In this document: positions 1 to 42,875 of the stretch, piece by piece
Layout: the number at the start of each line of letters is the position of its first letter
Position numbering within the stretch: position 1 is the stretch's first letter
Source of the DNA: Spirochaetota bacterium
GTDB lineage: Bacteria > Spirochaetota > UBA4802 > JAFGJZ01
Direction of reading: 5' to 3'
Assembly (NCBI GenBank): GCA_027858855.1
Contig: JAQIBV010000047.1
Coordinates: 1-52,828, forward strand
Length of the DNA stretch: 52,828 bases
Position numbers and translations under genes: made by a program
Notes under the pieces: generated by a model
Seen by the model: only the letters and a program-made list of their open reading frames with translations
The model's database searches: none
What the model was told of the DNA's origin: nothing

Positions 1-130
1 ACACGGTGGTGACGCCTCTTCGATAGAGTTTCTCTGTGAAGTTGGCCTCAACTACGTAAGCTGTTCTCCGTACCGGGTTCCGGTGGCTCGCCTTGCCGCA
101 GCTCACGCGAATCTGAAAACAGAAGAGTAA
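1..130 (+). CDS. ppdK: Pyruvate phosphate dikinase, C-terminal end (partial)
   Basis: The reading frame from base 2 to the TAA at 128-130 encodes the last 42 residues of a PPDK-type protein. It shows the family's C-terminal motif GGDASSIEF followed by [16 protein letters not shown], which belongs to the PEP/pyruvate-binding TIM barrel and includes the catalytic Cys region. The rest of the gene lies upstream of the window. PPDK interconverts pyruvate and phosphoenolpyruvate using ATP or PPi chemistry, and is common in fermentative anaerobes. A stem-loop 13 bases after the stop suggests it ends its transcript. Confidence 0.93.
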
Positions 131-142
131 GTAACAGCTATC

Positions 143-193
143 GAGATACGGCAGAAGAAAAGCCAAAATTAGACGTCTCTACTGCCGTGTCTC
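143..193 (+). terminator. Long stem-loop after ppdK
   Basis: GAGATACGGCAG (143-154) pairs with CTGCCGTGTCTC (182-193): 12 pairs with one wobble, closing a 27-base loop. It lies just after the ppdK stop. There is no strong T tract after it, so it may be a terminator or an mRNA-stabilising 3' hairpin. Confidence 0.5.
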
Positions 194-230
194 AATATTA
201 GAAACTCTAATAATTTACTTTTTAACCAGG

Positions 231-340
231 TTGCATGTGCGAGCAGCAAGAGTCATCTTGCGACCAGCACAGGTTGCATGTGCGAGCAGCAAGAGTCATC
301 TTGAGACCAGCACAGGCTGCATATGCGAGCAGCCCAGCAC
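231..340. repeat. 43-bp tandem repeat, about 2.5 copies
   Basis: Copy 1 is 231-273, copy 2 is 274-316 (one base different), and a diverged partial copy covers 317-340. Each unit contains the perfect hairpin CAAGA-GTCA-TCTTG, enclosed by TGTGC/GCACA across a symmetric 6x6 internal loop. No gene is supported here: the short open frames across it only reflect the repeat period and have no convincing start. Copies abut directly with no unique spacers, so it is not a CRISPR array. Confidence 0.85.
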
Positions 341-367
341 TACGTTGTTTTTTCAAAGTGGTGCTGG
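334..367. other. Hairpin at the end of the tandem repeat
   Basis: CCAGCAC (334-340), the tail of the last repeat copy, pairs perfectly with GTGCTGG (361-367). The loop is T-rich. It sits between the tandem repeat and the three-way-junction element, so 231-450 is almost continuously self-complementary. Confidence 0.6.
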
Positions 368-384
368 ACGACCAGCAAAGGACC

Positions 385-450
385 TTACCCGTGGGATTGT
401 TCTTATCAGAACAATAAGTTTTTAGCGCAAGATAAAAACCCCACGGGTAA
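385..450. other. Inverted repeat shaped as a three-way junction
   Basis: An 11-bp perfect outer stem, TTACCCGTGGG (385-395) with CCCACGGGTAA (440-450), encloses two perfect hairpins. These are ATTGTTCT/AGAACAAT (396-403 with 408-415, loop TATC) and GTTTTTA/TAAAAAC (418-424 with 433-439). Only two bases (416-417) are unpaired at the junction. This could fold as RNA or as a DNA cruciform. I do not recognise the family, and there is no coding gene here. Confidence 0.7.
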
Positions 451-576
451 CACGAAAAATTCCAATACGCTAAAATATTATTGCTTCTTTTCGAGCTTCA
501 CGAGAAAAATTACCCTTTGAAATAAGCTGATTTTTCGAAGTTCATTTCTATCACAAAATCAACGATTATACAATAA

Positions 577-618
577 AATTTATTAGCAAGATGTTTTTTT
601 ACATCCTGCTAATAAATT
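577..618 (-). terminator. Terminator of the M20-YfcC operon
   Basis: An 18-bp stem with one mismatch (577-594 with 601-618) closes a T6 loop about 37 bases after the stop of the minus-strand transporter gene. On the minus strand the stem is followed by a T-rich tract (TTTTATTG), as expected of an intrinsic terminator. Confidence 0.7.
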
Positions 619-654
619 CACAATCGGAAATAGGAATGCCGAGAATAAAGCTCT

Positions 655-2130
655 TCAAAAGGGGCCAAAATCGATGTATACGGCAAAGGCGAGAAAGAGA
701 GAGCTTATCAACAACATAAATAGCTGTAGTTTAAATGTGTACTTAATCCACTGTGGATAAGAGACAACTGTAAAACTTAATGCAATTAAAAGAAGAGCGT
801 TAGAGGGAAATACCATATTGGAAAAACCGTCACCAAAATCAAAGGCCAGTACTGCTGTTTGCCGGGTAATGCCAACCAAATCAGCAAGCGGAGTTAATAT
901 GGGCATCATTAGAAAAGCCTTAGCACTTGCCGAACCTATGAAAAAATTCATTACAAGAGTAACTCCGTATACAAGAAAAGCGGCTCCAACAGCTGGTGCA
1001 CTTGCGATAATTCCGGCAGCACGATTAAGAATGGTATCTGTTATCATCCCCTGGTCTATAATGTGTTTAATAGAATAGGCCATTAATATCAAAATAACTC
1101 CCGGAAGCATTGCAAGCCAACCGGAAAAGAAGGTCTTAGTAATATTTAAAAGATTCATACGGGCAAAGAGTGCCGCGCCGACTCCACCCACAAAAAAGAG
1201 AAGCCCCATAAGAGGAAACGCAATTACAGAAATATTTGGTATCACAGAAAAAGATGACAGCACAGAAACCGCAACAATTGAAACCATAGCACAAACCATA
1301 CAACATGAAAAGAAGATTAGTGCATGCCTCATTCCCGGGTGCTTTTCTTCCCAGTCGGGGATATTTTGTACAGTCGATATTAGTTTTTTATCCTGCTTAA
1401 AGGTAGGAGAAAGTTGCGGGTTCTGTTCAATACGGCGAGCGTAGCGCGACACAAAGCGATATAGCACCAGGTAAACAATGAAGAAAAATATTATACGAAG
1501 CCATGCCCCAGAAAAGAGTGGCAGATCAGCAATTGACTGGGCGACTGCTACCGTAAAGGGATTTGTAACCGCAGCTGCGAATCCGAAAGAGAGTGGTAAA
1601 AGGCTAATGCCCAGACCGGTTAAGCTGTCCCAGCCAAGAGAATGCGCAAGTGGCACAATAAAGATAATCAGAGGAACCAATCCCTCATAGATTCCCAGGA
1701 AAGAAGACATAAACATAAATAAAAAGATTAAAATTGCCATCAATAAATATTTCCGGTCTTTAAATCGTTTTACCAGACGTCCGATCAGGTCTGCCATAAC
1801 CTCAGACTTTTCAAGCAATGAGATGGCTCCACCGACAAAAAGAATAAAGATGATTATTGTTATCAAGGCAGCGTTTCGAAGAGGAAACAGAACTTCAAGT
1901 GGCGAAGTAAGCCATCGCCAAAAGGGATAGTCCGGTTTTTGTACATATCGAAATGAATCGGGAACTATTATTGTTCGTCCAAGATTATCTACAACCCGTT
2001 CGTACTGACCCGATGGCAAAATTATTGTTAAAACACCGGTAAGCATCATGAGAATAAAAATAATCAGAGCTGCCTGTAAAAACGCCCTTTTACCGATTAC
2101 GACCTGGCTTTCTCCCTGCAATCTCACCAT
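655..2130 (-). CDS. YfcC/DcuC-superfamily membrane transporter
   Basis: This 491-residue protein has about 12 hydrophobic helices. It carries motifs typical of the YfcC family (C4-dicarboxylate anaerobic carrier superfamily): an N-terminal helix ending LPSGQYER, the central TNPFTVAVAQ, and the C-terminal GSASAKAFLMMPILTPL with FPSNALL. Members are thought to move amino acids, peptides or dicarboxylates across the inner membrane; the substrate cannot be read from sequence. It lies 5 bases downstream of an M20 peptidase gene on the same strand, so import and hydrolysis of a peptide-like or N-acyl amino acid substrate is a reasonable inference. Confidence 0.85.
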   Translation of the reverse strand: MVRLQGESQVVIGKRAFLQAALIIFILMMLTGVLTIILPSGQYERVVDNLGRTIIVPDSFRYVQKPDYPFWRWLTSPLEVLFPLRNAALITIIIFILFVGGAISLLEKSEVMADLIGRLVKRFKDRKYLLMAILIFLFMFMSSFLGIYEGLVPLIIFIVPLAHSLGWDSLTGLGISLLPLSFGFAAAVTNPFTVAVAQSIADLPLFSGAWLRIIFFFIVYLVLYRFVSRYARRIEQNPQLSPTFKQDKKLISTVQNIPDWEEKHPGMRHALIFFSCCMVCAMVSIVAVSVLSSFSVIPNISVIAFPLMGLLFFVGGVGAALFARMNLLNITKTFFSGWLAMLPGVILILMAYSIKHIIDQGMITDTILNRAAGIIASAPAVGAAFLVYGVTLVMNFFIGSASAKAFLMMPILTPLADLVGITRQTAVLAFDFGDGFSNMVFPSNALLLIALSFTVVSYPQWIKYTFKLQLFMLLISSLFLAFAVYIDFGPF

Positions 2131-2135
2131 TCCTC

Positions 2136-3587
2136 CTATAGCGACTGTATCATTTGTGTGTAAAAATTAATTCCAAAGCAGTAGTTTTCAATACTAATGG
2201 ATTCGTTGCGACTATGAATTGTTTTTCGATCACCCGGAGTTAGAAGCATAGGCGAAAACCGGTAGATAGCGGAGCTAATTTGAGAAAAAAACTTTGAGTC
2301 CGTTGTAACGTTACAGAGTAGAGGAGCCGTAACAAATGAGGGGGCCACCTGTTCAATTACCTTTTTTATTGTTCTGTACCCATCACTATTAATTGGCGAT
2401 GCATTAATCGGTTCAAAGGACTCCTCTTCACAGGCATTTGTGACCGTAACCGCCGGATCATCTATTATTTTTTTTAACAAAGCACACACCGTTTCACGTG
2501 TTTCTCCAGGTAAAATACGTATATTAAGGTTAGCCTCCGACTCCAACGGAAGAACGTTACAGCGACTACCTGAATTAATCGTTGTAGCAACAACGGTTGT
2601 CTGAAGCAGAGTACGGGTTGCATCATCCTTTTTTAAAATTGCACACATCAACCCTGAGAAAAGCCAAAGGTTACTCCAGATTACAGCTAACGGGAAAGAA
2701 ACGCATGGAACCAATGTTTTAAAGAAGAGTGCAACCTCAGGAAGCATTTTTATAGGAAACCGATACTTATGCACACGGTAAAGAGCACGAACAAGACGAT
2801 CTCCACCATGCATTACGGGAGGCATTGAGGCATGCCCATCGACTCCTTCACAACCAAGCCGAACATTCATATATCCCTTTTCAGAAACACCGACAATAGC
2901 AATGGGATCAGCAACCATGGGAGGAAGTCCAGTGATTGCACAAGAACCCTCATCGAGTATCCAATCCAGCCTGATATTTTGAGAGATAAGGTGATCACGT
3001 ATGACAACTGCTCCACGTTCACTGGTGGTCTCTTCATCGCCGCCACACGCTATATATAGTGTCCGTTGCGGAGAAAACCCCTGCTGCAGGAGTGTTTCAA
3101 CTGCCTCGAGCGATGCCATAAGGGTGTTCTTTGTATCAAGAGTTCCCCTTCCCCAGATCCGCTCTTCGGCGACGGTTCCAGAAAAAGGAGGATATTGCCA
3201 GCCGGTGTCGTCAGCATCAACTACATCGTAGTGAGCATAAAACATAACAGGCAAGTCCTTGTTGGCGACTCCAGTCCATTTTATCAGCAAAGCATAATCG
3301 CTTAAAATTGTGACATCCAGTCGTGAAAAAATATTCGGGAAACTCTGTTTTAGAAAGCCGATGAAAGCGGAGAACCGAGATGAGTCGACAAGGGAAACAT
3401 CGGCAAAGGAAACAGTTTTGAACTGTATTGCACGTGATAGACGCTCTATCTGTTCCGGTAGAAGTGGTACGGTTTGCATAGCAGACGCCGTTTTACGGGG
3501 TTGAAAAAAAAGGATGGCTGTTCTGAATAGAAGAACAGCAAAGAATAAAGATATTGCAGTTATTATCAGTATAGTATTCATATCCAT
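2136..3587 (-). CDS. M20 family metallopeptidase, membrane-anchored
   Basis: A 483-residue zinc hydrolase of the M20 (carboxypeptidase PM20D1/CPS1-like) group. Metal and catalytic residues are visible in order: HYDVVDA (His and first Asp region), GRGTLDTK (bridging Asp), GGDEETTSERG (catalytic Glu and ligand Glu) and a C-terminal GDRKTIHSRNE (His ligand). An N-terminal hydrophobic segment (about residues 5-28) suggests membrane anchoring. The dimerisation insert lies mid-protein. It is the first gene of a two-gene operon with the YfcC-type transporter. The family cleaves peptides or N-acyl amino acids; the exact substrate is unknown. Confidence 0.88.
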   Translation of the reverse strand: MDMNTILIITAISLFFAVLLFRTAILFFQPRKTASAMQTVPLLPEQIERLSRAIQFKTVSFADVSLVDSSRFSAFIGFLKQSFPNIFSRLDVTILSDYALLIKWTGVANKDLPVMFYAHYDVVDADDTGWQYPPFSGTVAEERIWGRGTLDTKNTLMASLEAVETLLQQGFSPQRTLYIACGGDEETTSERGAVVIRDHLISQNIRLDWILDEGSCAITGLPPMVADPIAIVGVSEKGYMNVRLGCEGVDGHASMPPVMHGGDRLVRALYRVHKYRFPIKMLPEVALFFKTLVPCVSFPLAVIWSNLWLFSGLMCAILKKDDATRTLLQTTVVATTINSGSRCNVLPLESEANLNIRILPGETRETVCALLKKIIDDPAVTVTNACEEESFEPINASPINSDGYRTIKKVIEQVAPSFVTAPLLCNVTTDSKFFSQISSAIYRFSPMLLTPGDRKTIHSRNESISIENYCFGINFYTQMIQSL

Positions 3588-3703
3588 ATTTAAAATCCTG
3601 TAGTTTTTTTAACAAGTAGTAAACGGTGATAATTCTCACTTTTACAAGGAAGCTGTTCGTAAATAAGCTATGGAGGCTTCCAGGACTTCATGTAAAGAGA
3701 GTA

Positions 3704-4732
3704 CTACAGAGAAGAGATGGCAAGGTCGCTGTCAATTAATTTGACAACACTACGAAGTGTTTCCGACATAAAAACATTCATCTGTGCATCTATCAGAATA
3801 ACCTGCAGATCTGGTTGTTCTTTTAATATTGACTTTACACCTTTAAGACTCATTACAAAAAAGGCAGTAGCATATGCATCAGATGTTGCAGAATCATCTC
3901 CTATAACCGTTACTGAAATAAAGTTGCGAGCTGGATATCCTGTACGAGGATCAATAATGTGATGATACCGCTTACCATTTTTATCATAGGCAAAGCGCTC
4001 ATAATCACCAGAAGTTACACAGGTTTTACCAGTACGGATCGGAAAAGAAAAGAGCAGCTGGTTATTTTCACGTGGATGCCGTAGCCCCGTCACCCAGGGA
4101 GAACCATTTTTAGTGCCTAATACAACTATATCTCCACCGCCATCTACAAGAGCAGATGTTATACCCGAGTTTTTCAATAAATCAATTGCCTTTCCAATTA
4201 TATAACCCTTTGCTACTCCACCGAGTCCAATTTTTGTATTTTCATTATTTCGTGTAACGGTACCCATTGCGGAGTTTAACTTTATACGGTTGTACCCCAC
4301 TGATTCGAGAGCCTGTTTAATGTGCTCCTTTTGAGGTGGCACGAAATCGTTTTGGGAAAAGTTATAAAGATTTCCAGCCGAAGCGAAGGTTATATCGAAA
4401 GCGCCCCCACTTTGCTTTGCGACCTGTTGCGCAATTTGTAGCACCTGAAGGCAGTCAGATGATACTTGAACTGGCTTACCGGGCGGGGATTCGTTTATAC
4501 GGCTGACATCTGAACCCGGAGTCGGACCCAGCAGCTTACTAAGCCGACCAATTTCCTCGAACGCCTCATTAATTACGATATGAGCCTTTTGAGACGAATC
4601 TGCATATACAGTAATAGTTACAACCGTCCCTATCATAGCTTGTGTTAGGCTGTAAGGTTGTAATTCCATTTGCTGTCCCTGGCTGCATGCTGTTGTTACT
4701 GTTATTAATACAATAATTAATAGCTTGTTCAT
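3704..4732 (-). CDS. apbE: FAD:protein FMN transferase, lipoprotein
   Basis: ApbE attaches FMN through a phosphoester bond to Thr/Ser of target flavoproteins, such as Rnf or Nqr subunits. Family motifs are GGVAKGYIIGKAID, SALVDGGGDIVV, HIIDPRTGYPARN and GDDSATSDAYATAFFV. The N-terminus is a lipoprotein signal ending in a lipobox (VTTACSQ), placing it on the periplasmic side of the membrane. I start it at ATG 4732 (MNKLLIIV) rather than the TTG two codons upstream, because a GTGGA Shine-Dalgarno-like sequence is suitably spaced. No target flavoprotein or Rnf gene is in the window. It is monocistronic and divergent from the gene at 4884. Confidence 0.92.
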   Translation of the reverse strand: MNKLLIIVLITVTTACSQGQQMELQPYSLTQAMIGTVVTITVYADSSQKAHIVINEAFEEIGRLSKLLGPTPGSDVSRINESPPGKPVQVSSDCLQVLQIAQQVAKQSGGAFDITFASAGNLYNFSQNDFVPPQKEHIKQALESVGYNRIKLNSAMGTVTRNNENTKIGLGGVAKGYIIGKAIDLLKNSGITSALVDGGGDIVVLGTKNGSPWVTGLRHPRENNQLLFSFPIRTGKTCVTSGDYERFAYDKNGKRYHHIIDPRTGYPARNFISVTVIGDDSATSDAYATAFFVMSLKGVKSILKEQPDLQVILIDAQMNVFMSETLRSVVKLIDSDLAISSL

Positions 4733-38206: not shown

Positions 38207-38370
38207 TTTACCTTCCTGTGCCTATTTAAGTACCCTATTCTATTAAATCGAACTATATTGAAAAAAAATGAACCAGAAAGCAGCATATATGGAATTATTT
38301 ATTGAATTCTTAACCGCTGAAAGGTTCGATGATACTACTAGGAACCTCTAATAATAAACTAATTATCAAG

Positions 38371-38446
38371 GAACTTGCGAAAAATTCCTTAATAATAGAC
38401 ACTTTAACTGTGTTACCTTCTGAAATATTGTAATTTTTCGAAGTTC
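38371..38446. repeat. 76-bp terminal inverted repeat element, copy A
   Basis: GAACTTGCGAAAAATT at the left end is mirrored by AATTTTTCGAAGTTC at the right end (one extra base). A second element of exactly 76 bp with the same ends is at 42769-42844. It ends 34 bases before the start of the DHH-phosphoesterase operon. A separate AGGTTC/GGAACCT hairpin lies just upstream. The 273-base gap holds no gene. Confidence 0.6.
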
Positions 38447-38479
38447 CCTACTTTAAAATAATAATCAGAGACGGAGAAC

Positions 38480-42678: not shown

Positions 42679-42768
42679 TGAATCTCTCTCATTTTTATTT
42701 TCTAATCTGTTTTCTATTTGACATTGCCCTAACTCCACTCATATCTATTCTATAAGCTTTAAAAGCTT

Positions 42769-42844
42769 GAACTTCGAAAAATTTCCAAATTACTAAAAAC
42801 CATGCTTTTCTAAAACTGCATTATTTGACAATTTTTGAAAGTTC
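42769..42844. repeat. 76-bp terminal inverted repeat element, copy B
   Basis: GAACTTCGAAAAATT at the left is mirrored by AATTTTTGAAAGTTC at the right. Length equals copy A exactly, although the interior is only loosely similar. It ends 62 bases before the EI24-like gene start. Confidence 0.6.
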
Positions 42845-42851
42845 TATAAAC

Positions 42852-42875
42852 GAGGTAATCATTAGAGATTACCTC
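42852..42875 (+). promoter_or_regulatory. Hairpin in the leader of the EI24-tmk operon
   Basis: GAGGTAATC (42852-42860) and GATTACCTC (42867-42875) form a perfect 9-bp stem with a 6-base loop, 31 bases before the start at 42907. It could act as a leader hairpin or a terminator for the previous operon. Confidence 0.5.

Follow-up and report, generated by a model that had tools for sequence, protein, structure and literature searches.

Bacterial MITEs such as RUP, the Correia elements and Nezha are short, non-coding, AT-rich and intergenic, and occur in multiple copies with terminal inverted repeats (TIRs), target duplications (TSDs) and strong secondary structure. The same properties are found in a spirochaete repeat family represented in the window—that is, the stretch of 52,828 nucleotides analysed here in full—and the features of MITEs in general also agree with the family (PMC10969869). 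It differs from RUP, Correia elements and Nezha in a combination of TIRs and TSD that this analysis matched to no described family, and in the unusually large number of hairpin modules located at fixed points.

The BOX elements of pneumococci and Streptococcus suis (boxA-boxBn-boxC) share with the family constant ends and variable, sometimes tandem, self-folding internal modules, and measure 67–637 bp (PMC3049150), compared with about 67–400 bp for the spirochaete elements. However, their hosts belong to another phylum, and the spirochaete family has several module types, including a hairpin within a hairpin. BOX elements are the best architectural parallel, with the likeness being one of architecture only.

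Free organelle hairpins may nest within one another. Such elements (double-hairpin elements and the RHE of sponges; PMC2800124) resemble the spirochaete modules in being small hairpins at many sites, but they lie free in mitochondrial DNA, whereas the modules described here lie inside a MITE bounded by TIRs and flanked by 4-bp TSDs. Quasipalindrome correction, in which one arm is rewritten to match the other and several pair-restoring changes occur together (PMC8794818; PMC7202029), offers a likeness of another kind, being not a family of elements but a process, proposed below as the mutational origin of the perfect base stem in the window copy. REP/BIME elements with RAYT, which consist of a palindromic unit of 20–40 bp and have no TSD, were rejected as a counterpart, the family having TIRs, 4-bp TSDs and a unit of at least 109 bp.

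A three-way junction inside a MITE

The gap that contains positions 385–450 of the window is bounded by a PEP-utilising enzyme (ppdK-like; PF02896), whose C-terminus ends at position 130, and by a DcuC/YfcC-type carrier encoded on the minus strand at 655–2130. Stem 1 (11 bp) is formed by TTACCCGTGGG at 385–395 and CCCACGGGTAA at 440–450, stem 2 (8 bp) by ATTGTTCT at 396–403 and AGAACAAT at 408–415, and stem 3 (7 bp) by GTTTTTA at 418–424 and TAAAAAC at 433–439, with the AA at 416–417 providing the only unpaired bases of the junction. The three perfect stems and two unpaired bases, which can be read directly from the sequence, are as the initial annotation had described them, and its statement that they are very unlikely by chance holds as well: the RNA fold was calculated at −30.5 kcal/mol (z = −6.3), a value equalled by 0 of 200 dinucleotide shuffles, and base composition predicts about 1.5e-8 such trios of perfect stems (11, 8 and 7 bp) per window. 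Folding of the other strand as DNA gave z = −8.3.

The junction is only the middle part of a repeated element of about 349 bp (about 199–547), all parts of which are given here for the plus strand. The element begins with a left TIR at 199–218, a degenerate copy of GGGAACCTCTAATAATTAAC (fuzzy match with 5 mismatches to the consensus of the 57 copies that have exact TSDs), and ends with a right TIR at 526–547, a degenerate copy of GGTAATTTTTCGAAGTTCCC (fuzzy match with 4 mismatches). Between them are two 43-bp accessory hairpin units at 231–273 (TTGCATGTGCGAGCAGCAAGAGTCATCTTGCGACCAGCACAGG) and 274–316, a variant unit with a long CCAGCAC...GTGCTGG hairpin at 317–381 (variants of which occur among other copies), the three-way-junction module at 385–450, and a further accessory module containing TTTTCGAGCTTCACGAGAAAAATT at 460–515, whose limits, taken from comparison with other copies, are approximate. 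The TSD of this element is degenerate, and a search of the genome of the sister species (G001) for DNA orthologous to its flank gave no match.

Alignment of the flanks of the copies revealed a constant left end, GGGAACCTCTAATAATTAAC, and a constant right end, GGTAATTTTTCGAAGTTCCC, forming imperfect inverted repeats; the resulting TIRs of about 20 bp (GGGAACYTC...) have the consensus sequences GGGAACCTCTAATAATTAAC and GGGAACTTCGAAAAATTACC, with 16 of 20 positions identical. An exact 4-bp TSD was found in 57 of 86 elements, compared with 10.4 after shuffling, and the signal appears at k = 4 only, with a per-base identity of 0.88. The targets are AT-rich, mostly TATT, TTAT, TAAT and TATA. Furthermore, removal of the element and one ATTA from contig C35 of the window's own genome (G000) leaves a sequence that aligns nearly without gaps to an element-free orthologue in G001 (L107/L086), demonstrating an empty site; in a second occupied/empty pair (L186/L122), the lengths agree and the alignment is poor. 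By its anatomy, then, the family is a MITE, having TIRs, 4-bp TSDs, an empty site, and short, non-coding, mostly intergenic copies (67–397 bp in length; 81 of 87 extracted elements do not overlap an open reading frame of at least 100 amino acids). One option raised in the initial annotation, an end of a mobile element, was right as to the kind of element, given the dispersed copies, TIRs, 4-bp TSDs and empty site, but not as to the position, the junction being an internal accessory module. The reading preferred here, with a probability of about 0.88, is that 385–450 is an accessory hairpin module within a decayed, non-autonomous MITE (about 199–547)—that is, a neutral hairpin cassette.

BLAST searches with the 385–450 module retrieved 18 copies in G000 (63 contigs) and 15 in G001, which is very probably JAFGRW from Zodletone spring, and none in the other relatives searched. 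A covariance model trained on 23 copies of the module matched 17 sites in G000 and 25 in G001. Matches to the core number 55 and 43, respectively, and the family as a whole comprises at least 86 delimited copies in the two genomes, 87 elements having been extracted and one spurious pairing of 1012 bp (L006) left uncounted. While flanking regions are about 70–82% identical between G000 and G001, the G001 module copies are 84–90% identical to the window copy, and many G001 cores 82–95% identical to the query core. One weak covariance match (G031; E 1.8e-4), the sole one in the 44 other genomes searched from the order, was judged to be due to chance, as was an identical stretch of 21 bases in a record from Neomarinimicrobiota; searches of viral contigs, plasmids and phages for the family gave no match. 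As judged from these searches, the range of the family is limited to one genus. A literature search found no paper on spirochaete MITEs of such kind, and as far as the analysis shows the family would be new, while being ordinary in kind.

Two further members are present in the window. The region 38336–38452 (plus strand, TSDs included) holds a 109-bp core MITE at 38340–38448 with no modules and an exact TSD (TACT/TACT), and 42767–42873 on the minus strand matches as a degenerate core copy. An ATG is located at about 38480, approximately 28 bases downstream of the former copy, which might affect the promoter of the gene beginning there.

In G000, many copies are found no more than about 200 bases from the end of a contig (C6, C10, C13, C17, C22, C36, C42, C53 and C55). 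Repeats of the family therefore probably break the assembly, making the copy numbers underestimates. Orthologous gaps of the two species (L061/L050 and L107/L086) each contain at least one element, oppositely oriented in one case, a hint that a given gap may have received insertions more than once. Another shared repeat (ttccggttaaaaaacgcggcttgtatactc...) was seen upstream of two module copies, at about 260–436 of L013 and in L010 (G000 C31 and C17).

Hairpin modules and the base stem of the window copy

The commonest form of the family is the 109-bp core, to which longer copies add hairpin modules, always at fixed positions. The extracted elements show about 24 combinations of these modules, which comprise 43-bp hairpin units (from none to about 5), the long-hairpin variant, the 385–450-type module, and further AT-rich units. 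The 43-bp units, 45 of which occur in the loci analysed, covary at one closing pair, which is Watson-Crick in 26 cases, compared with 10.4 after shuffling. In its short form, the 385–450-type module is a 42-bp insert relative to the core and forms one hairpin; the long form has an additional 24-bp hairpin, AAGTTTTTAGCGCAAGATAAAAAC, located at 416–439 in the window copy. Comparison of the sequences, the folds and the two forms shows the three-way junction to be built as a hairpin within a hairpin, with the 24-bp hairpin lying inside the stem of the 42-bp module. Forty-two elements have no scored module, and many of these are of core length and have exact TSDs, so that no module is needed for movement.

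The window copy is exceptional in the perfection of its base stem. In all 22 other aligned long copies, the 5′ arm is, apart from minor changes, TTGCCCTTGTAGG, whose pairing with CCCACGGGTAA is imperfect, and the folds range from −14 to −24 kcal/mol, compared with −30.5 kcal/mol in the window copy. Relative to the consensus, the window 5′ arm shows four substitutions and the loss of one base (an alternative register turns these into two substitutions plus two small indels), with the 3′ arm unchanged, and each of these changes converts a wobble, mismatch or bulge into a Watson-Crick pair. This second register of the base stem, in which the common form has a two-base bulge and one A-C mismatch, leads to the same conclusions. 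Pairing was improved by 4 of 4 changes in the window copy and by 1 of 29 distinct helix changes elsewhere (Fisher p = 1.2e-4 in a post hoc test). Since all of the changes in the window 5′ arm improve pairing, the stem of this one copy of the module suggests 'palindrome correction' by a template switch. Template switches are a known source of new hairpins and a known means of their repair (PMC8794818). In addition, the arms of long-hairpin modules in G000 C62 (L007) and G001 C50 (L068) are homogenised over 25–27 bp, including the variable closing base, where the other long-hairpin copies have a mismatched block.

A variant of the MITE reading would make the perfect stem ancestral and the imperfect stems products of decay, with no template switch needed. 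Decay is indeed general, with 27 of the 29 distinct helix changes outside the window copy weakening the pairing, but the long copies share the same imperfect arm across two species, for which parallel decay is implausible. An imperfect-arm founder could explain the shared arm if the window copy had branched off early; however, the window copy does not resemble an early branch, having the T42/A61 and G50 of most other G000 copies. An ancestral perfect stem is thus considered unlikely, and correction of the 5′ arm is preferred. A more general proposal—that the MITE core is a platform for hairpin cassettes that are added at fixed sites, nested within one another, and born and mended by template switching, so that the family records how compact multi-branched folds, from hairpin to three-way junction, can originate without selection on RNA function—is put forward as a speculation and considered rather unlikely.

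RNA and DNA-structure readings of the fold

A functional structured RNA, either a small RNA or a cis-regulator, dispersed and kept by selection on its fold, would account for some features of the alignment. Pairs 42/61 (U-A, C-G and A-U), 45/58 and 22/35 vary on both sides, with three Watson-Crick types at the first and two at each of the others; the covariation score of 0.113 exceeds the 0.064 of shuffled alignments (0 of 500) and also that of slid controls; and on the plus strand, 48 G-U cells are found versus 8 A-C cells. There may, then, be some structural constraint on the module, with covariation exceeding that of both shuffles and slid controls. However, the number of pairs changed on both sides does not exceed that in shuffles (98 of 500), the covariation rests on a few changes common to subfamilies (42/61 and 45/58), and template switching can itself yield compensatory changes. 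The initial annotation had held that compensatory changes in a covariance search would support RNA function. Such changes were indeed found, but they do not establish that function, because they define a few subfamilies, while most other changes (the 27 of 29) break pairs. Against an RNA also stand the absence of orientation bias relative to co-directional genes (16 versus 24, p = 0.27), the presence of elements in divergent and convergent gaps alike, the lack of the module in most elements, and a range of one genus. An Rfam scan of positions 1–4000 of the window gave 0 matches at E ≤ 1. Taken together, these observations make a functional RNA very improbable. A role as terminator was considered and rejected, with divergent gaps being favoured over convergent ones (25 versus 10, p = 0.017), the opposite of what a terminator would lead one to expect.

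Also very improbable is a DNA hairpin or cruciform that is required for transposition or serves as the binding site of a host protein, in the manner of IS200/IS605 ends, REPs and attC sites: the module is very stable as single-stranded DNA, its fold is kept in many copies, and there are many hairpin modules per element, but it lies in mid-element and not at a terminus, is not needed for movement, given the 42 elements that have no scored module (among them many core-length copies flanked by exact TSDs), and belongs to elements whose TIRs and exact TSDs point to DDE-type transposition and not to Y1 or integron recombination.

Source of mobility and meaning of the family

On the neutral-cassette reading, a DDE transposase acting in trans would have recognised the TIRs, made a 4-base staggered cut and so moved the copies. 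The modules would be passengers, added or removed by recombination or replication errors, and the base stem in the window would have been perfected when template switching rewrote one arm from the other by quasipalindrome correction. TIRs starting with GG together with a 4-bp TSD presumably recall the IS5 group, which is taken here as a lead only. A MITE commonly, though not invariably, has ends in common with an autonomous element or IS of its genome. Searches of G000 and G001 for PF01609, PF13586, PF13358, PF05598 and PF13701 found none with the TIRs of the family; the lone match was a decayed PF01609 remnant in G001 C62 (L191), with internal stops and without these TIRs. Widely spaced facing ends were also considered as an autonomous partner and rejected: in L161 the two ends are partial and enclose host-like genes, while those in L006 are the spurious pairing left out of the count. 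The autonomous partner has possibly been lost. For the host, the structure would most likely have no function other than occasional effects on flanking transcripts.

With its strong z-score, compact junction and real compensatory changes, the fold at 385–450 could be mistaken for a novel structured RNA, although what fits the data is a mobile element with hairpin modules; this calls for caution in covariation-based RNA discovery in multicopy repeats. The family, in which modules are nested and the arms of at least three copies are seemingly homogenised, provides a data set for testing whether template switching lies behind compensatory changes. From the host's side, the family is an ordinary genomic parasite, one that seemingly also breaks assemblies.
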